Assembly (NCBI GenBank): GCA_937922805.1
Contig: CALAJV010000003.1
Span: 62,001 to 126,000 of the forward strand
DNA from: an uncultured Acidimicrobiales bacterium
GTDB lineage: Bacteria; Actinomycetota; Acidimicrobiia; Acidimicrobiales; SZUA-35
Direction of reading: 5' to 3'
DNA: 64,000 bases
Below the pieces are notes generated by a model. It searched no databases, was not told the DNA's origin, and saw nothing but the letters and a program-made list of their open reading frames with translations. Position 1 is the stretch's first letter. Each line of letters opens with the position of its first letter. Positions 24,060 to 42,107 of this stretch are shown here, one piece after another. A program made the position numbers and the translations under genes.

Positions 24060-24758
24060 ATGAGCTACAGAAAAGGCCACCATCGCCCAAATCGGCGCTT
24101 CCTGAACCTAGGCCTTGTGCCACTTGCAATCGGGATGGTGGGGCTTGGATTCGCTGCGCTACTAACCCAATCAGCTCGGACGTTCGCCGCTACGTCACAA
24201 TCTGCTAACGGCCAAGTAATTCAACTTGTGGACCGAGGCGATGTTGTCGCTTCAAAGGTTCGGTTCACGACCGCAGAGGGCGAACGTATCACCTTCACCA
24301 CTAAGTCAGCTTCTGACCCGCCTGCGCATGAAGCCGGAGAACGAGTAGATGTTCTGTACCAGGCGGACAATCCCAATGACGCCATTGTCGATAGTTGGGC
24401 CGAGCAATGGCTCTTCCCAACAGTTACCGGTGGCATTGGAACCGTTTTCTTTCTCGTTGGTGTGCTGATCTACCTTGGCGGCCTCAACCTGACAAGTACT
24501 CGTTCCCGAAACCGAACGACCGTCGACGCTGATGCTGATGCTGATGCTGATGCTGATGCTGATGCTGATGCTGATGCTGACGCTGACGCTGACGCTGACG
24601 CTGACGCTCTCAAGCGAGGCAAGCTAACGGCAACGCAGCGTTACCTCATCAAGCCGGCTACCGGTGAGGCTGACGATCAAGACGATTTCCCATCAGACAC
24701 GAACTACATCATCGAGCCGAATCGAATCGCTAAAGACGGCTCAAGCGACTGGCCGTAA
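24060..24758 (+). CDS. DUF3592-like two-TM protein with (Asp-Ala)14 repeat
   Basis: 232 residues. A first membrane segment (GLVPLAIGMVGLGFAALL) is followed by an extracytoplasmic beta domain with ANGQVIQLVDRG..., RFTTAEGERITFTT and VDVLYQADNPNDA, then a second segment, the standard DUF3592 layout. The cytoplasmic tail then carries fourteen consecutive Asp-Ala pairs encoded by a hexamer microsatellite, followed by a polar end. Function of the family is not established. The repeat would make a highly acidic flexible linker. Confidence 0.75.
   Translation: MSYRKGHHRPNRRFLNLGLVPLAIGMVGLGFAALLTQSARTFAATSQSANGQVIQLVDRGDVVASKVRFTTAEGERITFTTKSASDPPAHEAGERVDVLYQADNPNDAIVDSWAEQWLFPTVTGGIGTVFFLVGVLIYLGGLNLTSTRSRNRTTVDADADADADADADADADADADADADADALKRGKLTATQRYLIKPATGEADDQDDFPSDTNYIIEPNRIAKDGSSDWP
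24525..24608 (+). repeat. In-frame hexanucleotide microsatellite, 14 units of GAYGCT
   Basis: Fourteen tandem GA(T/C)GCT units. One GACGCT is followed by eight or so GATGCT units and then several GACGCT units, so the array shows internal homogenisation. Copy-number change would alter linker length without breaking the frame. Confidence 0.95.
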
Positions 24759-29697: not shown

Positions 29698-32235
29698 GTG
29701 TCTAATCCGGACCGGCGGGTCCCCAATTCAGGCCAGCGACGTGGCTCCGGCGATGGCTTTTTCGTCGATATCACCCCGCCCGAATTCGGAGACAAGCGGC
29801 CGGGCGAAAATGCGTCCGTTCATCAACCGGCATCTGTACCCGTCACCCCAGATCCGCCAAACGTACCGGGCCAATCAACATTTGTTGAGCGCCGAGTAAC
29901 CCCAGCCAGTACAAGAGATTCAAACGGCCTTTTCTTTCGGACCCCGAAAATCAAGCCAGAAGAACAGACTGGTAAGAGCGAGTCTGCTGCCGATTTAGAA
30001 ACAACTGACGAAGTGCCAAGCGTGCCGGATCGAATCCCGCTGTCGGGAGAGGAATCGAACGAGGCCGACTCTAGTTTCCCCGCGGAAGCACCGCTGGCTG
30101 ATGCCGGACAGGTGGGGTCGGTAACTGAACATCCGTCGGAGTCAGTTACTCAAGACATTCCAAACCCAGCTGCGCCCGGTTCGGAGCATCCGACCGATCA
30201 GCTCGAGGTAATAGACCCTTCGGTTGTCAGGCCTTCAGACGACACGGATACGCATGCGGCCCCGACTAGTCAGCAGACGACGCCACCTGAACCGACAGAA
30301 CAGTCGCACGATGACCAAACTACGGGCCCGCCTGAACCAACCGAGACCGGTTCCATCCCTGCCTCCGCCGACACATCAGACGAGAATCTTTCTCCAGCCC
30401 AGGTTCAGCTAGCTGAGTTGCGGGCCATGCTCTCCAAAATGAGCAAGCCTGCTCGACAGCCATCGGATGAGATTGCAGAACGAACAACTCACGAACATCC
30501 GATTGGCGATGAGTTGCAGGCAAAGCTTGCTAGTGGCGAACCGGATGAGACGGCAATTGAAGTTCTACCGAAAGGCGGTGACAGCCAGCAATTGCCGCCA
30601 CCCCCGCCAGTTCGACCTTCTGTCCCGTACTTCCCTACCCCAGAGCAAAAGAAAGCGCACGCCCGATTTCTTCCGCCCGACACTCGGCCGACGGCAAACC
30701 CAGCGCCACTCCGCCTGTCGACGCCAGCGGATGATCGCTATGGATTGCATGAACAAGGGGTCCCACCTCTACCGCTTCAATCGGAATCCCTTGTGTCGCC
30801 GAGCGAAGAAGGCGAAACAGCAACATCGGCTATGGACCCGGAGGTCACCGGTCAGTACGAATCGATCAACGCCGAGAGCGGCGCCCGTCCCGGAAGTATT
30901 GCGCGTGATGGGGAACCGGGCCAGAATATCGACGATACCGGAAGCAATGCGGGGGCCGAAAACTTCCAACGAGACGGTTTTTTCACCAACGATGATCCCG
31001 ATCTAAACGCAGCTCCCGATCTGCCACAGCTCGACGCCGAAGTCGACGCAGATTCGACCCGCCCTGCTGGCAACGCCAGTTTCGACTACGACGACGGTCG
31101 TCGGCGACCGAGGCGACCTGCCGATGAGCGAAGCGACTATCAAGTTGTTGATGCTCGAAATGGCGAGTACGACTACGACCACGAATACTATGCCGCTAGT
31201 CGAACCAGCCAGAATCGCAATCAACCGTCACCCGACGGTGGGACCTATCGCAGGTCCGCTTCTGTCGAGGACCGCCCCGACGACCATAGCTGGGCTCCGG
31301 TAGTACAAGGTCGACGATCTGAGAACGCGAATCGCAGCCGGGCCGGTGACGCCGTCGATCGGATGCGAATCGGCCGAGTTATCTTCCTGTTTCTTATCGC
31401 TGGCGTTATCGGCGGATTTTGGTGGGCTAACAGCACCGGTTTGATCAACCTCGGCGAGCTGACGGGCCTCGGGTCCAATTCAGAAACAACAGAGAACTCA
31501 ACCAATCTTTCCGACGACAACGAAGACGATTCATCAAACGCTTCCTTGCCGCAAGACGTTGCTGAACAAGAGCGAGGAATCAACGACGAGGCCCTTGGCC
31601 TTGTCCAGCCCGAATCTAGCGAGACTTTGAACGTTGCCGACCCAGACGAAGCCGTTGGCTCGGTATCTGAAGTTCGCCTTCTGATTCAGGCCGAATCGGT
31701 TGACGGAGATCCAGTACCGGGTGTGCCGGTAGAGGTTGTTACCGCACAAGATTCAAGGGTCTTAGCTCGAGTCGAGACCTCGATTACAGGTATCGCAACC
31801 TATAACTCGGACAACCCAGGCTGCTATCGAATCCAGGTTCAAACTCCTGCCGGGTGGGTCCTAGATGATCCGACCGGTGGGAAATTTGCCTCCGTTTGCG
31901 GTGAAGATTCCCACTCGTCAGTATTCAAAGCTGTCTTCCGGCCGGCGACAACTGCGGCTCCGGAGTACTGTCTGGTTCGAGCAGGCGGTGTACCAAAGGA
32001 AACGGTCATTGTCTCCGAGGGTGACGCCGGCTACGCCGACTCGTACACGCTCTACGATCGTTTCGGCCGCAAGTTGGCCGAAACGCAAGATCCTATCCCT
32101 GACGAAGAACCCGGCCAGGCAGTGCTTGAGTGGCCACCAACCGTTGACTTCGCGTCGGACGAAATTGCGGCACTGTCGGCCACTACTGGGGGCGAAGAAT
32201 CATTACCGACCCCGTGTGACCTGGTCCCAGCATAA
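29698..32235 (+). CDS. Single-pass membrane protein with long disordered N-terminus and extracellular beta domain
   Basis: 845 residues. Residues 1-555 are low-complexity, rich in Pro, Glu, Asp, Ser and Thr, ending in an Arg/Asp/Tyr-rich stretch. One membrane segment (VIFLFLIAGVIGGFWWA) lies near 560-580, then an acidic Ser/Asn linker. A carboxypeptidase-regulatory/SdrD-B-like beta domain occupies about 655-760 (VRLLIQAESVDGDPVPGVPVEV), with paired Cys in NPGCYRI and ASVCGED, and a final domain has two more Cys. The charge pattern suggests N-terminus inside. The downstream gene is a shorter paralogue. Start is GTG. Confidence 0.75.
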   Translation: MSNPDRRVPNSGQRRGSGDGFFVDITPPEFGDKRPGENASVHQPASVPVTPDPPNVPGQSTFVERRVTPASTRDSNGLFFRTPKIKPEEQTGKSESAADLETTDEVPSVPDRIPLSGEESNEADSSFPAEAPLADAGQVGSVTEHPSESVTQDIPNPAAPGSEHPTDQLEVIDPSVVRPSDDTDTHAAPTSQQTTPPEPTEQSHDDQTTGPPEPTETGSIPASADTSDENLSPAQVQLAELRAMLSKMSKPARQPSDEIAERTTHEHPIGDELQAKLASGEPDETAIEVLPKGGDSQQLPPPPPVRPSVPYFPTPEQKKAHARFLPPDTRPTANPAPLRLSTPADDRYGLHEQGVPPLPLQSESLVSPSEEGETATSAMDPEVTGQYESINAESGARPGSIARDGEPGQNIDDTGSNAGAENFQRDGFFTNDDPDLNAAPDLPQLDAEVDADSTRPAGNASFDYDDGRRRPRRPADERSDYQVVDARNGEYDYDHEYYAASRTSQNRNQPSPDGGTYRRSASVEDRPDDHSWAPVVQGRRSENANRSRAGDAVDRMRIGRVIFLFLIAGVIGGFWWANSTGLINLGELTGLGSNSETTENSTNLSDDNEDDSSNASLPQDVAEQERGINDEALGLVQPESSETLNVADPDEAVGSVSEVRLLIQAESVDGDPVPGVPVEVVTAQDSRVLARVETSITGIATYNSDNPGCYRIQVQTPAGWVLDDPTGGKFASVCGEDSHSSVFKAVFRPATTAAPEYCLVRAGGVPKETVIVSEGDAGYADSYTLYDRFGRKLAETQDPIPDEEPGQAVLEWPPTVDFASDEIAALSATTGGEESLPTPCDLVPA

Positions 32236-32378
32236 CGGCAAACCAACGTTGCATTTCCGATCACAGGGCCCGGTAGCTGGAGGCGTCGAGACGCAAACGT
32301 AACTCGGTTGCACAGTTTCCATGACCTAGATGCGCTAGATTGCGGTATCAAGGCGGATCAAAGAGGCGGGCGGTTGCG

Positions 32379-33749
32379 ATGGAAGACGAGCTGATTGTCG
32401 ATCGGCGAAGACCACGTCCAGATCGATTAGAGAACGTTGGATCAGTGCCAGGGGCGGCTTGGGCTGTTACCGCCGAAGTAGACGTTTTTGTCGATCCACA
32501 GACCTTTGAGCAAGAGCGCCGATTAGCCGACCGACCAAAGCAGGATCATCAGATCACGATTGAGCAAAAAGCGGAAACCCTTCGCGCTGGCATTGAGCCA
32601 GTCGACGATCTCAATCGAGCAAGGCTCATCAGAGTATTTACTGGACTGATCGTGCTTTTCCTAGTGTCGGGGATGATCTGGTTCGTCGCCACCAGAAGTG
32701 GCAACGGAAATTTCGATTCGGTTCCGGCCGGAGACAATACTCCCCCGCAAACGGAGCGAACCGAGTCCTCTGAGCCAACCAATTCTCAAGCCAGTGAAGG
32801 CGACAACGGTAGCGAGATCGGCCAGTTCACCAGTGATGACCCTCCCGAGGACCAGAATTCCCAAGTACGTGAGGACGATCGGTCGGCACCTGAAAGTGAC
32901 GAAGCTCAAGTTGATATCGACGACTCCCCTGGCAACGGTGACGCCCCTGAAAAAAACACATCTACCGGCAATGAAGGGCTTCAAGAAGGAACGGCCGACC
33001 AGGAAAGTACCGATAGCCAAGATCCCACTAGCCCCGTCAATGGATCAACTGACCCGGCAAAAAGCGACGACAACAGCCCGGCTGAACCTGCCCCAACAAC
33101 AGTAACGACGGCCCTTCCAGTCAGGTCGGAAACGCAGACGGTCTCGATCGTCCGGGTCCAAACTCAGTCTCGGCTGGACGGCGGCACGTTGGCCGGTGTC
33201 AGCGTGACTTTGGTAGCCGAACCGGCAGGTCAGATATCATCTGCGACCTCCGGCAGTTCTGGCTTCGCCTTCGTAAGCATGCCATCAGGTTGCGGCACAC
33301 TTACCTATCGACCTCCGGCTGGATACGAGGTTGTATCCCCGGCCGGAGGCTCGATCCGAGTTTGCTCGGAGGATTCTAACGCCATTCAGTTCGCCTCGTT
33401 CCGGTCGGCTGAGAACGCAACTTCGGAGGCGGCTGCTACAACGGTCTCGTGGGATACGTCACCTGGTCCTTGTGATGTAAACGATAAGCGATCCTTCGGC
33501 GCCGACGTAACCCACACCGGGCCAGCTGTCATCCGCGTAAGAATGGCTGTCCTAGATTCGTTTAGCAATGTCGTTCATCAAAGCCACGTGATAACCACGA
33601 ATCCCAGTACTCAGACATCGGTTGAGCTCGAAGGTATTCCGACCGGACGGCTCACTGTGAGGATCATTAACGCTTCAAACAACGAAACGATCAAGGAAAC
33701 GAGTCAGTACTTTAGTCCCTGCCGAACCGGGGAGCTGGCGGAAGAATAG
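32379..33749 (+). CDS. Paralogous single-pass membrane protein with beta domain
   Basis: The ATG at 32379 gives 456 residues (the longer frame opens with TTG). Layout matches the upstream protein but with a short cytoplasmic part (~85 residues): one membrane segment (LIVLFLVSGMIWFVA), an acidic Ser/Asp/Gln/Asn linker of ~150 residues, then a beta domain (VSIVRVQTQSRLDGGTLAGVSV) whose GCGTLTYRPPAGY...PAGGSIRVCSED aligns with the paired-Cys core of the upstream protein, and a last Cys-containing domain. Tandem duplication followed by divergence of the disordered parts is likely. Confidence 0.75.
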   Translation: MEDELIVDRRRPRPDRLENVGSVPGAAWAVTAEVDVFVDPQTFEQERRLADRPKQDHQITIEQKAETLRAGIEPVDDLNRARLIRVFTGLIVLFLVSGMIWFVATRSGNGNFDSVPAGDNTPPQTERTESSEPTNSQASEGDNGSEIGQFTSDDPPEDQNSQVREDDRSAPESDEAQVDIDDSPGNGDAPEKNTSTGNEGLQEGTADQESTDSQDPTSPVNGSTDPAKSDDNSPAEPAPTTVTTALPVRSETQTVSIVRVQTQSRLDGGTLAGVSVTLVAEPAGQISSATSGSSGFAFVSMPSGCGTLTYRPPAGYEVVSPAGGSIRVCSEDSNAIQFASFRSAENATSEAAATTVSWDTSPGPCDVNDKRSFGADVTHTGPAVIRVRMAVLDSFSNVVHQSHVITTNPSTQTSVELEGIPTGRLTVRIINASNNETIKETSQYFSPCRTGELAEE

Positions 33750-33785: not shown

Positions 33786-34568
33786 ATGCAACCGTCTGAT
33801 GTTGAAGCGGCAGCCGCGATGCTGATCGAAGCGCGAGTTAGCCAAAGCCCACTCGACGAACTGCCAGAACAGCTGCGACCACGGTCAGTTAGCGAAGCTC
33901 TAGCAATCGAAGACAAAGTTGCTTCTGTTTCTGGATGGCCAATGCTCGGATGGAAAGTTGGTTGTACGTCAGTTGCCTCTCAGGAACTGCTTGGCACTGA
34001 TAGCCCGTTTGCCGGACGAATTTACAGCATTTCCGAGTCCGGGGCTCCCCTGCCTTCTGATTCAATCACTGGTACCGTCTATATCGAAGGTGAGTTTGCG
34101 TTCACTTTCGATAAAACGCTTGCCCCTGGCGGCAGCCCATTTTCTACCGACCAGATTTTGGAAGCAATCGGAGATCTCCAATTGGCAATCGAGATTGTTG
34201 GCGGTCGATTTAGAGAGTTCGTCGGCATGCCAGCGCCGTCCATAATCGCCGACGCCGGAAGCAACGATCATCTTGTTGTGGCTAAGCCATCAGCTTCATG
34301 GAAGACTGCCGAATTGCCGACCCAAAAGGCCACGATGGCAATCGACGGTAAGATCGCAACTTCTGGTTCGGGCCTCGACGTCCTGGGGAACCCCGTTAAT
34401 TCGCTGGTGTGGCTAGCGAACCACCTCGCCGATCGAGACCTAGCGATCGAAGCCGGACACGTTGTCACCACCGGCACGGCCACCAAGGTCACGGTTCTTC
34501 CAGTCGGGTCAACGGCGGTAGCCGACTTCGGGGTGCTTGGCTCGGTTTCGACCTCGCTGACCGGCTAG
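33786..34568 (+). CDS. 2-keto-4-pentenoate hydratase / fumarylacetoacetate-hydrolase-related enzyme
   Basis: 260 residues of the MhpD/HpaH type. The core reads GWKVGCTS, GRIY, a metal-binding EGEFAFTF, AIEIVGGRF, IIADAGSNDHLVVA and NSLVWLANHL. Such enzymes hydrate 2-hydroxypentadienoates or decarboxylate related keto acids in meta-cleavage pathways. No ring-cleavage genes are in the window, so its pathway is open. TAAGTT sits exactly at -12 to -7 of the ATG with no Shine-Dalgarno sequence. Confidence 0.85.
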   Translation: MQPSDVEAAAAMLIEARVSQSPLDELPEQLRPRSVSEALAIEDKVASVSGWPMLGWKVGCTSVASQELLGTDSPFAGRIYSISESGAPLPSDSITGTVYIEGEFAFTFDKTLAPGGSPFSTDQILEAIGDLQLAIEIVGGRFREFVGMPAPSIIADAGSNDHLVVAKPSASWKTAELPTQKATMAIDGKIATSGSGLDVLGNPVNSLVWLANHLADRDLAIEAGHVVTTGTATKVTVLPVGSTAVADFGVLGSVSTSLTG

Positions 34569-34805: not shown

Positions 34806-37286
34806 ATGAACAGGCCTCCTTCTAGTCCGATGAATAGCGCCACCTATGAGAATTTTCCGTCCCGAGCCCGGGTGGTCGTCATTGGCGGAGGTGTCGGCGG
34901 AGCAAGTACCTTTTACCATCTGACCACGCATGGGTGGAAAGATGTGGTCTTGATCGAGCGTGATGAATGGGCGTCAGGTACAACGTGGCATTCGGCTGGA
35001 CAGGTAACTCAATTCGGGACCGTTCAAACAATGGTCGGGTTGAAAAAATACTCATGTGAACTCTACGCTAAACTGGCTGCCGATCCTGATCGTCCCATCA
35101 CGTACCGAAGTCACGACGGCGGCATTCGCCTCGGCTACGACCAACAAGACCTCGATGGATACTCTCATTTTGTGGGCATGGCCAAGGGTATGGGCGTAGA
35201 CTTTCAAGTCATCTCTCCGAGCGAGATGGCCGAAGCTCACCCCCTGCTCGATGTGACCGGATTGACGTGTGGTCTGTGGGATCCAGTCGACGGCGACATC
35301 GACCCAACCGGGCTCGTTATGGGCCTAGTACACGCCGGACGCAACAATGGCGGTCAGGCGTATCGGTTCACCGACTGCGCCGGGTTAACTCAAACTGCTA
35401 CCGGGTGGATCGTCCATACCAACCAAGGCGATATCGAATGTGAAAGCATCGTGAACGCTGCCGGATACCGGGTTCACCAGGTCGGCAACTTCTACGGTCT
35501 CGAGTCGGCAGTTTCATCGATGGAACATCAGTTTTTCTTAACCGAAGAACTTCCTGAGTTGACCGAGCTTGGCCGCCGAGTCCCGCTGCTTCGAGACCCT
35601 GGCGATGACTTCTACAGCCGACAAGAACATCACGGTCTTCTGGTTGGCATCTACGAGCAAGGCTGCAAGACATGGGGTCGAGAAGGTATCCCGGTCGACT
35701 TTGCCAACAAGCTCGAACCGCCCGACTTAGATCGCTTGGAAGATAACATGATGCGAGTTTTCGAGCGGCTACCCATACTTCAAACTGCCGGAATCTCGTC
35801 TGTGGTCAACGGTCCAATCACATACTCCGGTGATGGTGTCCCGCTGGTTGGTCGGCTACCGGGCCGTCGAAATGCTTACTGCATGCTGGGTTTACGGGCG
35901 GGCGTGGGCGAGGGCGGTGGCCTCGGCAAAGTCTTGGCCGAAATAATCGTCGACGGTCAATCCGAGTGGGACACCTGGGTTCTAGACCCTCGGCGCTTCA
36001 CCGAATACGCCGACGAAACGTATGCATCCGCTAAGGCAGTCGAGGAATATCAGCGCGAGTTCGTATTCGACCACCCTGACGAGCATCGACCGGCTGGCCG
36101 ACAAGCCAAGGTCACCCCGTTGACTGAGGTTCTAGCCGAAAAGGGCGCCGAGTTTGGAGCCATAAACGGCTGGGAGCGTAGTCTGTATTTCCACCCGGCA
36201 CACGGCAACTTCGAACATGTTCCCGCCTTCCGCTTCTCCACCTATCATGACCAGGTTGGCCGAGAGGTGGCGGCGGTACGGTCGAACGTGGGCGTGGCTG
36301 AGATTAGCGGCTTCACTCGCTTCAACGTCGAGGGAGACGACGCAGTTGCTTGGTTCGATGGTCTCACCGCCGGTCGAATCCCAGCGGTTGGCCGGACGTC
36401 GTTGGCCTACGTCAGTGACGAAGCCGGCCGCTTCCTATCTGAGTTCACGATGACCCGACTGACCCCCGACAGCTTCTGGTTACTTAGTGCTGCTGCGGCC
36501 GAGTGGCACGACCTTGATGTGCTGACCGATGCCAACCCGCCCGAGAGCGTCACCATTACAAACCTCACCCATGATCACAATGCACTAATGATTGCTGGTC
36601 CGAACTCGCGCTCTGTCCTTGCCGCTGCTACCGATACCCCGCTCGACAATGCGTCGTTCCCGTGGCTGGCGACTCGCCCTATTGAAATCGCCGGTTTCAG
36701 TGTGGTCGCGCTCCGGCTTGGTTTCACTGGCGAACTGGGCTGGGAGCTACACATGCCGATGGAAGCGTCGCTTCCGGTCTACAACGCAATCCATGAGGCT
36801 GGGGCCGAACTCGGAATAGTCGACTTTGGACTGTTGGCCACAGAGTCGATGCGGATCGAAAAAAACTACCGAGCCTGGAAGACAGACCTTCATACCGAGT
36901 TCACCGTGCTCGAGGCTGGTCTCGACCGATTCGTAAACATGGACAAGAAGTTTCAAGGTCGCGACGCTATCGCTGCTCAACGAGACGTCGGACACCGACG
37001 CCAATTTGTTTCCATGGAACTAGACAACGAGATCGCTCCAGCCCACACCGGAGATCCGATCTACCGGAGCGGCGAGCTCATCGGCGTGGTTACTAGCGGG
37101 GCCTACGGACACCACATGGGTGTCAACATTGCTATGGGATACGTCGAACCGGCCTGCACCGAGCCCGGAACAGAGCTAACCGTGGAAGTGATCGGGAAGC
37201 CGTGCGCCGCTATAGTCCGCTCTGAACCGATGTTCGACCCCGAACACGTTCGCCCTCGAACAAACGCACAAGATCTCGATCTCTAG
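34806..37286 (+). CDS. FAD-dependent dimethylglycine/sarcosine dehydrogenase-like protein with GcvT domain
   Basis: The ATG at 34806 gives 826 residues. A DAO-type FAD domain starts with VVVIGGGVGGAS and carries TTWHSAGQV, whose His is the covalent flavin site in dimethylglycine dehydrogenase. An FAO_M linker, a GcvT folate-binding domain (about 440-720) and a GcvT C-terminal barrel follow. Family members demethylate N-methyl glycines, passing the one-carbon unit to tetrahydrofolate. The downstream decarboxylase starts 8 bases after the stop, so the two are in one operon. Exact substrate unknown; many paralogues act on other methylated amines. Confidence 0.88.
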   Translation: MNRPPSSPMNSATYENFPSRARVVVIGGGVGGASTFYHLTTHGWKDVVLIERDEWASGTTWHSAGQVTQFGTVQTMVGLKKYSCELYAKLAADPDRPITYRSHDGGIRLGYDQQDLDGYSHFVGMAKGMGVDFQVISPSEMAEAHPLLDVTGLTCGLWDPVDGDIDPTGLVMGLVHAGRNNGGQAYRFTDCAGLTQTATGWIVHTNQGDIECESIVNAAGYRVHQVGNFYGLESAVSSMEHQFFLTEELPELTELGRRVPLLRDPGDDFYSRQEHHGLLVGIYEQGCKTWGREGIPVDFANKLEPPDLDRLEDNMMRVFERLPILQTAGISSVVNGPITYSGDGVPLVGRLPGRRNAYCMLGLRAGVGEGGGLGKVLAEIIVDGQSEWDTWVLDPRRFTEYADETYASAKAVEEYQREFVFDHPDEHRPAGRQAKVTPLTEVLAEKGAEFGAINGWERSLYFHPAHGNFEHVPAFRFSTYHDQVGREVAAVRSNVGVAEISGFTRFNVEGDDAVAWFDGLTAGRIPAVGRTSLAYVSDEAGRFLSEFTMTRLTPDSFWLLSAAAAEWHDLDVLTDANPPESVTITNLTHDHNALMIAGPNSRSVLAAATDTPLDNASFPWLATRPIEIAGFSVVALRLGFTGELGWELHMPMEASLPVYNAIHEAGAELGIVDFGLLATESMRIEKNYRAWKTDLHTEFTVLEAGLDRFVNMDKKFQGRDAIAAQRDVGHRRQFVSMELDNEIAPAHTGDPIYRSGELIGVVTSGAYGHHMGVNIAMGYVEPACTEPGTELTVEVIGKPCAAIVRSEPMFDPEHVRPRTNAQDLDL

Positions 37287-37294
37287 GAGACCAA

Positions 37295-38794
37295 ATGGTT
37301 GACTCACTCCAGGAGCGAATTGCCGAACGTTCGCTGTCTTATGTTGTCGACCCTCCCCGAGGTCGTGATCCGGTAATAGATCTCGTTTCGCCCAGGGAAC
37401 TTACGGCGTTGTTCGAAAACGCAACAGCTCTCGGATTTAGTGACCAAGCAGCCGCCTACGACGATGATTCGGTGTTAGCCGCAGTCGACCTGGTTATTAA
37501 ACATTCGGTTCATACCAGTCACCCGAGGTTCGTCAACCAAAACTTCGCTGGTCCTGACCCAGTTTCGGTCGCGGGAGATTGGCTTGGCGCTGCGCTCAAC
37601 ACAACTGGCGCGACCTTTGAAGCGGCACCAGTTTTCACCCTGATGGAAAGCGCTGTTTTGTCAAAACTAGGCCGGGTCGCCGGGTACCTTCACCAATCAG
37701 CCGATCAGGTTCCGCCGCTTCCTCCTGGTTTGTTTTGCCCCGGCGGCTCAACTGCGACGCTGTACGCTCTGCAGTTGGCTCGTCACCGAATTCGGCCTGA
37801 CGTTCGGGTAACAGGATCAACCGGTGAACAACTAACAGTGTTCGTATCCGATTCGGGCCACTATTCAGCGTCTAAATCGGCAGCTTTGCTAGGAATCGGA
37901 ACAGACGCCGTGATCAAGGTTGCGTCGGACGACGACGGAGCCATGATCCCTAGTGCTCTTGGATTAGCCATCACTAGCTCGCTTGCTGCCGGGCAAGTCC
38001 CGTTCGCCGTAATTGCCACGTCCGGGACAACGGTCACGTCGGCTTTTGACAATCTGAACGCTGTCGCGGACATCGCTCAAGCTCATGACCTTTGGCTTCA
38101 CGTCGACGGTTGCTACGGCGGCTCAGCGCTATTCTCACCTAAACATCGCCACCTACTAAGCGGCGTTGAGCGCTCTGATTCATTCGTTTGGAACCTTCAC
38201 AAGATGATGGGAATGACTCAGCAGTGCACCGCTTTACTGGTTCGCGAACCTGCTCTACTAGAACCTTGTTTCGCTCTCAAAGCCGACTACTTGTTTCAAC
38301 CTGACAAGTTGCATGCCGAATACGACTCGGGTGATCGGACGTTTCAATGTGCCCGCCGAGTCGACGTTTTGAAGTTGTGGCTAGCCTGGAAGCACCACGG
38401 AGATAGCGGATTCGCCGCCCGAGTCGAGCATTCGGTTGAGATGGCGGCCTATGCCCGGCAACGGATCATGCAGTCCGACGGAGAGTTCGCACCAGTTACG
38501 GGGACGTTCACCAACGTGGTGTTCGCATGGATCCCTCCACACCTTCGACCGATTTCTTTGTCGCCTGATTCGATTCGATCGTTGGCGCCCGAAGTTCGGA
38601 GCGAGCTTCATAATCTCGCTCCTCAGATTAAGGCCATGATGCAGGCAGAGGGCACTGCCATGATGGGGTTCCAACCAGTCCATGGGCTCAACACGTTTCG
38701 GCTTCTGTTTATGAACCCGGCTGTCACGAAAGCTGATGTAGACGCCATGTTGGCCCGAGTGTCCGAATACGGCCGTGCCGTTAGCGGACACTGA
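37295..38794 (+). CDS. Group II PLP decarboxylase (cysteine sulfinate/glutamate decarboxylase-like)
   Basis: 499 residues. The N-terminal HPRFVNQNFAGPDPVSVAGDWLGAA and FEAAPVFTLME are characteristic of the CSAD/GAD branch. The cofactor site reads GGSTATLYALQ, HVDGCYGGSALF and the Schiff-base lysine WNLHKMMGM near residue 302. CSAD-type enzymes make hypotaurine or taurine from cysteine sulfinate or cysteate; aspartate and glutamate decarboxylases look similar, so specificity is not fixed. Its place next to an HpsN-like enzyme makes a sulfonate substrate attractive. GGAGACC upstream is a good ribosome site. Confidence 0.85.
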   Translation: MVDSLQERIAERSLSYVVDPPRGRDPVIDLVSPRELTALFENATALGFSDQAAAYDDDSVLAAVDLVIKHSVHTSHPRFVNQNFAGPDPVSVAGDWLGAALNTTGATFEAAPVFTLMESAVLSKLGRVAGYLHQSADQVPPLPPGLFCPGGSTATLYALQLARHRIRPDVRVTGSTGEQLTVFVSDSGHYSASKSAALLGIGTDAVIKVASDDDGAMIPSALGLAITSSLAAGQVPFAVIATSGTTVTSAFDNLNAVADIAQAHDLWLHVDGCYGGSALFSPKHRHLLSGVERSDSFVWNLHKMMGMTQQCTALLVREPALLEPCFALKADYLFQPDKLHAEYDSGDRTFQCARRVDVLKLWLAWKHHGDSGFAARVEHSVEMAAYARQRIMQSDGEFAPVTGTFTNVVFAWIPPHLRPISLSPDSIRSLAPEVRSELHNLAPQIKAMMQAEGTAMMGFQPVHGLNTFRLLFMNPAVTKADVDAMLARVSEYGRAVSGH

Positions 38795-38804
38795 TGGTGC
38801 CACC

Positions 38805-41288
38805 GTGACTTACTCATATCTCAAACGCAGCACCGCAGACGCTGCTTCACGCGACCTGGAAGTTTCTGATTCAGTTCGGGCCATGATTACCCGGTTGCGA
38901 GCCGGCGGCGCAACTACGGCGGCCGAGCTAGCTCAAACGTTCGACGGCTGGAGCGGCCCGATTCTAGTCGACAAGGAGACGATACGAGATGCCAAAGCAA
39001 CGCTTGCTCCAACGTTGCTCGACGACATCGCCGAGGCCCACCGTCACATTCGGTCGTTTGCTCAAGCGCAACGACAGTCGCTGCGGCCGTTTGAGGTAGA
39101 AGTCTCACCGGGGCTGCGGGCCGGGCACCGGCTGGTGCCGGTGAACGTATCGGGTTGCTACGTCCCCGCTGGCCGCTTCGCTCATATCGCCTCAGCCTTG
39201 ATGAGTGTTACCACATCGAGTGTTGCCGGGGTTGAAACGATCGTGGTTGCCTCACCGGCCCGAGCCGATCGAGGCGGTGTCCACCCAGCGATCCTGGCGG
39301 CCGCCGATATCGCTGGTGCTGATTTGGTTCTCGGTCTAGGCGGAGTCCAAGCCATTGCATCGTTAGCGTTCGGATTTTTCACCCAAATGCCAGCTGATAT
39401 CATCGTCGGGCCCGGGAACGCTTACGTCGCCGAAGCGAAGCGGCAGCTGTTCGGTGAAGTTGGGATTGATGTCGTCGCCGGACCAACCGAATCGATGATC
39501 GTCGCCGATCAGAGCGCCCAACCTGATCGAGTCGCTACCGACCTTGTCGGTCAAGCTGAGCATGGAGTCGACTCCCCGGTTTGGCTCGTCACGACCTCCC
39601 CCGCTCTGGCGGCTGAGGTAGCCGAACTAGTACCGCAAATGGCAGCCGACCTCCCGGAGCCGGCCCGAACTTCGGCCTTGTCGGCCTGGGCAGATCACGG
39701 CGAGATCATCGTGGCCGACACTCGAGAACAAGCAGCGGCCATTTGTGATGAGTACGCGGCCGAACACCTTCAGGTAATGGCCAACGACCTCGCCTGGTGG
39801 CATAACCGGTTAACCAACTATGGGTCTCTGTTCTTAGGCCAAGAGGCAACGGTAACCTTTGGAGACAAGAGCGCAGGGCCGAACCATATTCTCCCTACTC
39901 GTCGAGCGGCCAGATACACCGGCGGTTTAAACGTTCTCAAATTCTTGAAGCAACTAACGTATCAACAACTAACTCCTGAGGCAGCTCGCCAACAAGGTGA
40001 GTTGGCAGCCAGGATCTCCCGGTATGAGGGAATGGAAGGACACGCCCGATCAGCCGACCTCCGAGCCGAGCACCCTCTAGTACCGGACACCTCGGCATCG
40101 GCAAACCTCGACCTCGACTTCACCGCCCAAGAATCACTTCCGCCCGAAGCTGTTCAACGAGCCAATCAGCTTTTTCAGTCGGGCAAACTGTTCCGCTACG
40201 GCGAGGGCGGAGCCGAACAGATGGACGCGGCCCGGTTAGAGGAAGAGTTCGCCGCAGTCGTTGGTCGACAGTTTGCTGTGGCCTTCAACAGCTGCGGAGC
40301 GTCGCTCGCCGTCGCTCTCATCGCTGCGGGGGTCAAACAAAACGACAAAGTCTTGATGAATGCCTTTACCTTGGCTCCGGTACCGGGCGCTATCGCTCAC
40401 GCTGGCGCCCAACCTGTGTTCGTTGATATCACCAACAAGTACCACATCGATCTTGATGATCTGAAACGACAACAGTCAGCTACCGGGGCCAAGTGGCTGC
40501 TTCTGTCGTATATGCGAGGACACATTCCGAACCTAGACGATGTGATGGGTATCTGCGAAGAGCTCGACATCACCGTGATCGAAGATTGCGCCCACACCAT
40601 GGGAGCGAGTTGGGACAACCGACCAACTGGTACCTTTGGTCTGGCCGGGTGCTTTAGTACCCAAACCTTCAAACACGTCAACTCCGGTGAAGGTGGGTTG
40701 CTTGTAACTGACGATGAGGACCTGGCCGCTAAAGCGATATTAATGTCAGGCTCATACATGCTTTATGAGCAACACGGAGCCCGACCTAGCGCTGCCGCTT
40801 TCGAACGACACCGGCTGACGACACCCAACTTCTCTATGAGAATGAGCGCATTATCGGCCGCCCTCGCCCGACCGCAGCTCGAGCTTCTCCCCAAGCGGGC
40901 CGACATTTGGAATGCCCGCTACACCCAATTGGCGGAAGCAATCGGACGAATCGATGGGGTTCGAGTGCCCGGCCGTGATATCCGGGAGCAATACGTGGCT
41001 TCATCAATCCAATTCAACCTCGATCAGCTCAGCTTCGGCCACGATCAGATTGAATCGTTTGTCGCCCGAGCAGCTGCAGCTGGGGTTGCCCTCAAATGGT
41101 TCGGGTCAGATCGGCCAAAAGGCTTTACGAGCCGCTTCGATCATTGGCGATACGCCCCTGAACAGTCTGTTCCGCGGGCCGCCGAAATTCTTGCCACAAT
41201 GATCGACATGCGAATCCCGCTGATCATGACCGATTGGCAGGCTGACCAAATCGTTCAGATCATTGCCACGTCGCTAGAGAACGGTTAG
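38805..41288 (+). CDS. Fusion: HpsN-like (histidinol dehydrogenase family) enzyme plus DegT-type aminotransferase
   Basis: 827 residues from the GTG at 38805, where homology to HpsN begins (TYSYLKRS); a GTG at 38775 would overlap the previous gene. Residues ~1-430 match sulfopropanediol 3-dehydrogenase more than biosynthetic HisD: FDGW near residue 55, PVNVSGCYVPAGRFAHIAS, GPGNAYVAEAKRQLFG, and the zinc/catalytic set QAEHG, AAEHL, GDKSAGPNH and GMEGHARS. Residues ~445-827 form a complete DegT/DnrJ/EryC1/StrS aminotransferase with PLP contacts in FNSCGASLAVAL and EDCAHTMGA and the lysine in TFKHVNSGEGG. No stop or frame change separates the two. Substrate handover between them is inference. 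Confidence 0.85.
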   Translation: MTYSYLKRSTADAASRDLEVSDSVRAMITRLRAGGATTAAELAQTFDGWSGPILVDKETIRDAKATLAPTLLDDIAEAHRHIRSFAQAQRQSLRPFEVEVSPGLRAGHRLVPVNVSGCYVPAGRFAHIASALMSVTTSSVAGVETIVVASPARADRGGVHPAILAAADIAGADLVLGLGGVQAIASLAFGFFTQMPADIIVGPGNAYVAEAKRQLFGEVGIDVVAGPTESMIVADQSAQPDRVATDLVGQAEHGVDSPVWLVTTSPALAAEVAELVPQMAADLPEPARTSALSAWADHGEIIVADTREQAAAICDEYAAEHLQVMANDLAWWHNRLTNYGSLFLGQEATVTFGDKSAGPNHILPTRRAARYTGGLNVLKFLKQLTYQQLTPEAARQQGELAARISRYEGMEGHARSADLRAEHPLVPDTSASANLDLDFTAQESLPPEAVQRANQLFQSGKLFRYGEGGAEQMDAARLEEEFAAVVGRQFAVAFNSCGASLAVALIAAGVKQNDKVLMNAFTLAPVPGAIAHAGAQPVFVDITNKYHIDLDDLKRQQSATGAKWLLLSYMRGHIPNLDDVMGICEELDITVIEDCAHTMGASWDNRPTGTFGLAGCFSTQTFKHVNSGEGGLLVTDDEDLAAKAILMSGSYMLYEQHGARPSAAAFERHRLTTPNFSMRMSALSAALARPQLELLPKRADIWNARYTQLAEAIGRIDGVRVPGRDIREQYVASSIQFNLDQLSFGHDQIESFVARAAAAGVALKWFGSDRPKGFTSRFDHWRYAPEQSVPRAAEILATMIDMRIPLIMTDWQADQIVQIIATSLENG

Positions 41289-41479: not shown

Positions 41480-41498
41480 CGTGATGCGTCACGCATCT

Positions 41499-41528
41499 GA
41501 AGCCTCTGAACCGTGGTTCAGAGGCTTC
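41499..41528. terminator. Terminator of tRNA-Gly
   Basis: Perfect inverted repeat GAAGCCTCTGAACC / GGTTCAGAGGCTTC with a two-base centre, followed by GCTTGTTT. It lies 20 bases after the tRNA and before the convergent ATC-hydrolase-like gene. Confidence 0.85.
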
Positions 41529-41576
41529 GCTTGTTTAGGCGAGAGCAACGGGCTAACAATGGGGCTATCACCTTTG

Positions 41577-42107
41577 TCAATTGGTGGGGCCGGAAAGCTC
41601 GACTGGCGTGGAGCCGTCGGGCAGGGTGTAGCGGAAGTCGCAGTGCGAGGCTCCGTTCATTATTGTCTGTGTTCGCTCGAAAGTTATGTCCGAGTTGAAG
41701 CCCTCAACCATGGTTGCGTCCCGGTTGCACGACATCACGGCTCCCAATTCGGGGATGCCCAACGCTCGGTACATTTCGGCGTAGCGACATCGAGTTACGT
41801 TGAAGGCATAGGTGTCGTCGCTCTTCTCGATTACTTCGATCTCAAGCGCTCCGCCCTTGGTCCAATTGTCCATACTCCCAGAAAACGTCGCCAGATCGTT
41901 GCCACCGAGAGCGTCAGCTAACCCTGCTCCTTGGTTCTTGGCCACTTCGACTACAACTTCTGTCGCTAGTTCCAACACCCGCTGTCGCCCGAACTCTTCG
42001 CCCAACCTATCGAGCAGCGGTGCCACTATCCGGGCCTCAATCTCTCGGCGTTTCAACACACCTATTTCGTTGAGTGAGTCGGCACGGGGTTCTTGGTTGC
42101 TGTCCAT
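41577..42107 (-). CDS. L-2-amino-thiazoline-4-carboxylate hydrolase family protein
   Basis: 176 residues matching the ATC hydrolase family (AtcB-like), which opens the thiazoline ring in bacterial conversion of ATC to cysteine. The family signature CNRDATMVEGF followed by DITFERTQTIMNGASHCDFRY near the C-terminus is clear, with conserved Cys and His. No carbamoyl-cysteine amidohydrolase (AtcC-like) is nearby, so this may be a homologue with another role. It is alone on its strand, with the SWIM gene 52 bases upstream. Confidence 0.82.
   Translation of the reverse strand: MDSNQEPRADSLNEIGVLKRREIEARIVAPLLDRLGEEFGRQRVLELATEVVVEVAKNQGAGLADALGGNDLATFSGSMDNWTKGGALEIEVIEKSDDTYAFNVTRCRYAEMYRALGIPELGAVMSCNRDATMVEGFNSDITFERTQTIMNGASHCDFRYTLPDGSTPVELSGPTN

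Follow-up and report, generated by a model that had tools for sequence, protein, structure and literature searches.

The locus examined here raises the question of what a bacterium would gain from a histidinol dehydrogenase (HisD)-fold enzyme and a DegT aminotransferase joined in one polypeptide and encoded behind a FAD-GcvT oxidoreductase and a PLP decarboxylase. It lies in a stretch of 64,000 nucleotides (the window) from an uncultured Acidimicrobiales bacterium. The analysis points to a module that most probably forms cysteate from a C3 sulfonate, with (N-methylated) cysteinolic acid as the best guess, and taurine from cysteate. The three genes occupy positions 34806-41288 of the + strand with intergenic gaps of 8 and 10 bases (Table 1), in agreement with the head-to-tail trio with gaps of about 10 bases described in an earlier, sequence-only reading. 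The GTG codon at 38805 was preferred as the start of the fusion since HpsN proteins begin at that point; an alternative longer start at 38775 overlaps the decarboxylase gene. Downstream of the operon, the pattern scan highlighted a possible terminator, the number of terminator-like sites in the region being not above that of shuffled sequence.

Table 1. Coordinates of the operon features in the window.
Feature	Positions	Strand	Evidence
FAD-GcvT oxidoreductase, DMGDH type	34806..37286	+	Pfam DAO+FAO_M+GCV_T+GCV_T_C; human DMGDH best solved relative; TTWH
PLP decarboxylase, cysteine-sulfinate/glutamate decarboxylase group	37295..38794	+	PF00282; CSAD, GAD, GADL1 best solved relatives
HpsN-type half of fusion, GTG start	38805..40064	+	PF00815, 413 bits; 54% to CpHpsN
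His codon matching CpHpsN His126, marker of sulfonate dehydrogenases	39183..39185	+	Alignment; role from PMC11382572
Asp, Lys codons matching CpHpsN Asp352 (Zn), Lys353 (sulfonate)	39864..39869	+	Alignment; role from PMC11382572
Linker core between fusion halves	40065..40091	+	Seven fusions compared: variable length, sequence; low pLDDT, residues 425-432
DegT/DnrJ/EryC1/StrS aminotransferase half	40092..41288	+	PF01041, 170 bits; fold match AHBA synthase, BtrR, perosamine synthase
PLP lysine codon of DegT half (TFKHVNSGEGG)	40671..40673	+	Lys in 27/27 aligned relatives
Possible operon terminator hairpin, 14-pair stem, weak T tail	41498..41529	+	Pattern scan only

Several neighbouring genes of the window were also read. 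The upstream FAA-hydrolase gene (33786-34568) was rejected as an operon member, as it is missing from the other module loci. A small protein of the PF14196 family (L-2-amino-thiazoline-4-carboxylate hydrolase), encoded on the - strand at 41577-42107 and convergent with the operon, possibly plays a role in sulfur amino acid metabolism. Two neighbouring long proteins at 29698-33749, which contain a membrane segment and acidic low-complexity regions rich in Ser, Thr and Pro, look like paralogues when judged by eye, and a membrane protein at 24060-24758 carries a long perfect (Asp-Ala) repeat close to its C terminus.

As previously described, the third gene (38805-41288) is a single open frame without stop in which a PF00815 domain is followed by a complete PF01041 domain. 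Full-length fusions with 73-75% identity were detected in three others among 61 related genomes, one of them from another family of the order, and three more came from public genome contigs whose records are titled Acidimicrobiales or Acidimicrobiaceae. All seven fusions are stop-free, and their linkers, flanked by conserved ends, vary in both length and sequence. An assembly artefact, about which the sequence-only reading had worried, was therefore rejected: seven independent assemblies contain the fusion, six of which belong to further Acidimicrobiales or their relatives and have differing linkers. In ten further loci (L026-L028, L033-L035, L043-L045, L104), the HpsN and DegT genes are adjacent but unfused. 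The HpsN halves of fused and unfused Acidimicrobiia loci form one clade (100/100 support); in the best trees three unfused rows stand among the fused ones in one subclade, and the tree test is compatible with the fusion having arisen once (p-AU 0.157). The pair is rare, the DegT half being present in 4/395 genomes drawn from the class and 1/396 from the phylum. In the predicted structure, both domains are reasonably folded and their mutual placement is uncertain (pTM 0.49). DegT enzymes are dimeric. With HpsN being an obligate dimer (PMC11382572), a larger assembly is the probable form of the fused protein. Neither the pair nor the fusion is described in the open-access literature searched on HpsN, DegT, CuyA and cysteinolic acid, so the statement that no enzyme with this pairing is characterised holds for that literature. 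What is new is the covalent joining and the pathway setting of enzyme families that are themselves known.

The best solved relatives of the HpsN half were the HpsN enzymes of C. pinatubonensis (CpHpsN, 476 bits; 54% identity to the crystallised protein) and R. pomeroyi (432 bits), against at most 231 bits for any HisD, which bears out the resemblance to HpsN first suggested by motifs. In CpHpsN, His126 separates the sulfonate enzymes from HisD and holds the sulfonate together with Lys353, while Glu318, His319 and Asp352 are required for activity (PMC11382572). In the alignment, His126 (in a GR[YF]xH motif) and Lys353 are kept in the window and in all DegT-linked relatives, the sulfonate-site residues being intact in 26/26 DegT- or CuyA-linked HpsN. 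The zinc and catalytic residues Gln248, His251, His411, Asp352, Glu318 and His319 and the NAD-binding Asp46 are all conserved in the HpsN half as well. At position 126, Met is found in a sugar-transporter-linked paralogue and Tyr or Leu in HisD, which has Tyr at position 353. On the basis of these residues, the HpsN half should work like HpsN, and it is predicted to oxidise the CH2OH group of a sulfonate to COOH in an NAD- and Zn-dependent reaction. The possibility that this half is the sole biosynthetic HisD of a complete his operon was rejected, since the HisD of this genome is a separate gene (contig C7:125047-126261, 496 bits) and His126 and Lys353 are not HisD residues. A second HpsN-like clade (L036-L040, L115), from Acidimicrobiia and Mesorhizobium, carries Met instead of His126, with several genes adjoining sugar-type ABC transporters and LacI regulators, and it probably represents a polyol enzyme. 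The L036-L040 genes were rejected as module members because they belong to this different clade devoid of the sulfonate His.

The DegT half matched PF01041 far above the cut-off (170 versus 19.8 bits), and its PLP lysine was present in all 27 aligned relatives. Both halves have thus kept their catalytic residues, as had been claimed. A PMP-dependent dehydratase was rejected since Lys is kept instead of the dehydratase His. The predicted structure shares its fold and PLP lysine with the sugar aminotransferases AHBA synthase, BtrR and perosamine synthase; however, identity in these fold matches is about 20%, the gene lies outside any sugar cluster and, unlike those enzymes, the DegT half is predicted to act on a C3 sulfonate. 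A close relative with a characterised function was not found. DegT enzymes generally take ketones or aldehydes of the sugar type rather than alpha-keto acids. A ketone-to-amine role is proposed tentatively, with more doubt than confidence.

The neighbours of related genes in other phyla bear on the nature of the sulfonate. Plasmids of Alpha-, Beta- and Gammaproteobacteria yielded ten records with a DegT relative (46-52% identity), and in all of them (10/10) an HpsN-like gene lies at most a few kilobases away. The typical order is a D-cysteine-desulfhydrase-like gene, DegT, an amino acid racemase, tauABC (or TRAP) and hisD, often with a YeiH-type exporter. In the copies scanned, curated models identified, over their cut-offs, the desulfhydrase-like protein as CuyA (cysteate sulfo-lyase) and the racemase as CuyB (cysteate racemase). 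No CuyA gene is listed in the Polaromonas record, whose HpsN frame is broken: in this plasmid of Polaromonas sp. P1-6 (L099:7587-8868), the HpsN-like gene of the cysteate operon consists of two overlapping frames, due either to decay or to a sequencing error. A Ruegeria plasmid carries cuyA, cuyB and an hpsN-like gene, and within 25 kb there is neither DegT nor an annotated sulfolactate dehydrogenase, in keeping with a direct formation of cysteate. In the simplest interpretation, cysteate is the direct product of the HpsN-like enzyme, whose substrate would then already bear the amino group and be cysteinolic acid, and the recurrence of cysteate as a node (CuyA/CuyB in Proteobacteria, the decarboxylase here) indicates that this group belongs on C2. 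The CuyA/CuyB operons have in common with the Acidimicrobiia module the DegT and HpsN-like genes, often TauABC-type uptake and sometimes a related FAD-GcvT gene, but they cleave cysteate by CuyA whereas the Acidimicrobiia module seems to use the decarboxylase to taurine. Cysteate can be named as the product node with good confidence, and the chances that cysteinolic acid is the main substrate are about even.

Operons for dihydroxypropanesulfonate (DHPS), the substrate suggested in the sequence-only reading, are built differently. Besides hpsN and LacI regulators, they encode HpsO and HpsP, an SDR and an alcohol dehydrogenase. No DegT gene was seen in the HpsO/P operons read, and most of these also have SuyAB-like genes, or ComDE together with an alpha-hydroxy acid oxidase. 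Conversely, no HpsO, HpsP or sulfolactate dehydrogenase is annotated in the DegT-linked operons read, and HpsO and HpsP are absent from the operon and the module loci examined. These differences, together with the unusual alpha-keto acid substrate that the DegT half would have to accept, make it unlikely that the HpsN half converts R-DHPS to sulfolactate, an unlinked dehydrogenase gives sulfopyruvate and the DegT half forms cysteate on the way to taurine. DHPS is nevertheless a possible substrate: the HpsN half is nearest to true R-DHPS dehydrogenases, and the published account of the CuyA pathway of R. pomeroyi leaves its sulfopyruvate aminotransferase unassigned (PMC11382572), a gap that the DegT half would fill. 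Moreover, clean clades of DHPS-type and cysteate-type HpsN were looked for in Proteobacteria and not found: genes linked to CuyA/DegT and genes linked to HpsO/HpsP intermingle in the tree, so that HpsN sequence alone does not distinguish amino from hydroxy substrates. The HpsN half has the fold of the C. pinatubonensis and R. pomeroyi HpsN and every one of their residues for Zn, NAD, catalysis and sulfonate, but differs from R-DHPS HpsN in its fusion or pairing with DegT, its cysteate and taurine neighbours and its own Acidimicrobiia clade. In genome G019 (L030:8449-10913), an iron-type alcohol dehydrogenase gene precedes an HpsN-like gene whose DegT partner is on another contig; this enzyme is a possible C2 dehydrogenase for DHPS.

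The fate of cysteate was addressed through the genomes that carry the module. In G036, one 15 kb stretch runs from the decarboxylase, HpsN, DegT, a taurine-type class III aminotransferase, TauA, TauB and TauC onward to Xsc, with a phosphotransacetylase-family gene, one gene without identity and CobT- and CobS-like genes between TauC and Xsc. The genome of the window has its taurine locus on contig C15, with Xsc (1014 bits against a curated cut-off of 676), Pta, TauABC and the aminotransferase (79%); this Tpa-like aminotransferase is marginally below the cut-off of its model, which is not taurine-specific. Xsc was over the cut-off in 10/12 module genomes versus 6/49 others (Fisher p = 5e-6) and, within the same family, in 9/11 genomes with the module versus 6/26 without (p = 0.0014). 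A decarboxylase orthologue was present in 11/12 module genomes versus 6/49 others, and the decarboxylase tracked Xsc (14/17 versus 2/44); kinship is ignored in all these counts. CuyA over its curated cut-off was found in 0/12 module genomes and SuyB in none of the 12 (a search without positive control), while ComE gave weak matches in 3/12. From the co-occurrence of Xsc and decarboxylase with the module and the absence of CuyA, cysteate seems to leave Acidimicrobiia by decarboxylation to taurine, followed by Xsc. The module would then feed taurine dissimilation (Tpa-Xsc-Pta with TauABC) from above via cysteate. These results are in agreement with the tie to taurine and cysteate expected from the sequence-only reading. 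CobS- and CobT-like genes adjoin Xsc in several taurine loci (L073:8515-13997, L035, L086, L088, L092), mostly between Xsc and the phosphotransacetylase-family gene.

The module could instead make taurine as an osmolyte, the taurine breakdown genes being a separate trait. Such a role would suit G009 and G016, two module genomes in which true Xsc is absent, and the location of the window module and its Xsc locus on different contigs. It is rather improbable given the contiguity observed in G036, the proteobacterial versions that end in C-S cleavage by CuyA and the YeiH-type exporter of several of them.

The catabolic reading also gives a place to the first two genes of the operon. The FAD-GcvT protein has the domain order, the covalent-FAD His (motif TTWH) and the folate domain of dimethylglycine dehydrogenase, in line with the demethylating type previously proposed, and is predicted to be an N-demethylase passing methyl to tetrahydrofolate; it differs from that enzyme in having sulfonate genes as neighbours, and this linkage makes an N-methylated aminosulfonate its likely substrate. 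Beside its plasmid relatives (46-52%) lie genes for MttB-like trimethylamine methyltransferases or for a Rieske enzyme of the GbcA-like kind, and several of these relatives are near a cysteate operon. On the Ruegeria pomeroyi DSS-3 megaplasmid (L127:8010-11256), a relative (47%) is immediately followed by CuyB (276 versus a 190-bit cut-off), whose gene in R. pomeroyi is called unknown in a published paper. These demethylase, methyltransferase and CuyB neighbours suggest an N-methylated aminosulfonate as first substrate. Two closely spaced FAD-GcvT paralogues, 31-35% identical to that of the window, lie beside Xsc in G036 (L085:3927-9453) and G021 (L087:5467-11142) and are perhaps N-methyltaurine demethylases.

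The decarboxylase, assigned as before to the cysteine-sulfinate type, keeps the catalytic lysine of its HKM motif. The 2013 work of Agnello is said to have found F/S/Y at the selectivity positions of CSAD and S/N/F at those of GAD. Conversion of cysteate to taurine is predicted for the enzyme; a point on the other side is that these residues are F/T/A in 20/21 orthologues read, compared with F/S/Y in human CSAD. It is very unlikely that the decarboxylase and the FAD-GcvT protein serve other substrates (e.g. aspartate, glutamate, dimethylglycine) in a loose neighbourhood with the fusion. In favour of such a reading, no NCBIfam equivalog was over its cut-off for either protein, and the decarboxylase is missing in G021 and lies away from the fusion in G052. 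However, both genes recur beside HpsN-DegT in Acidimicrobiia loci in shuffled order and on either strand, the decarboxylase follows Xsc as described above, and the FAD-GcvT relative of R. pomeroyi adjoins the cysteate racemase gene. The neighbours of stand-alone decarboxylase copies (SbcCD, caprolactamase-like) shed no light on the substrate.

From the gene content, the fusion, the kept residues, the cross-phylum link to cysteate genes and the Xsc co-occurrence, all directly observed, we infer every reaction and substrate of the following pathway and the direction of the DegT step. The FAD-GcvT enzyme would remove N-methyl groups onto tetrahydrofolate. The HpsN half would bind the sulfonate via His126/Lys353 and zinc and, using 2 NAD+, oxidise CH2OH to COOH to yield cysteate. 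The DegT half would move the amino group at C2 of this C3 skeleton, interconverting 2-oxo-3-hydroxypropanesulfonate and cysteinolic acid, which would let the ketone, or the wrong stereoisomer, enter the pathway. The decarboxylase would then form taurine, and the separate locus (Tpa-like aminotransferase, Xsc, Pta) would convert it to acetyl-CoA and sulfite. The order put forward in the sequence-only reading (oxidation of an alcohol, e.g. DHPS, then transamination of the carbonyl), under which the HpsN half would take DHPS only as far as sulfolactaldehyde and the DegT half would transaminate this aldehyde to 3-amino-2-hydroxypropanesulfonate, would suit a handover of a reactive aldehyde between fused domains but is highly improbable, because HpsN and HisD enzymes go from alcohol to acid, the equivalents of Glu318/His319 needed for the second oxidation are kept, no operon gene seen would obviously use the 3-amino product, and the neighbours act on cysteate, the recurring node.

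A pathway starting from cysteinolic acid could in principle do without DegT, which counts against this substrate. The algal form of cysteinolic acid is generally given as D. HpsN is R-specific (PMC11382572), and stereochemistry may be the reason for the HpsN-DegT pair, since an amino-group move could fix the mismatch. On balance, the chances are about even for a catabolic module that forms cysteate, with cysteinolic acid (2-amino-3-hydroxypropanesulfonate) and N-methylated derivatives of it as the most likely substrate. A dedicated pathway of Acidimicrobiia and Proteobacteria for cysteinolic acid and N-methylated betaines, with demethylation, DegT/HpsN conversion to cysteate, then CuyA or decarboxylation, and with a bifunctional fusion in some Acidimicrobiia, falls somewhat short of an even chance.

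Cysteinolic acid is abundant in marine algae, up to DMSP-like levels (PMC8703288), and no bacterial gene for its breakdown is named in the open-access literature searched. Two enzymes that stand side by side in cysteate-breakdown operons elsewhere are here one protein, which suggests, rather than proves, a new route for using algal sulfonates such as cysteinolic acid via cysteate and taurine. Through the fusion, a single gene pair that can be followed from one phylum to another becomes a candidate for cysteinolic acid breakdown. If this is true, genes annotated merely as histidinol dehydrogenase and DegT aminotransferase beside cuyA and cuyB would gain a role, hpsN counts in metagenomes would not all reflect DHPS use, and cysteate would have a second exit, by decarboxylation to taurine.
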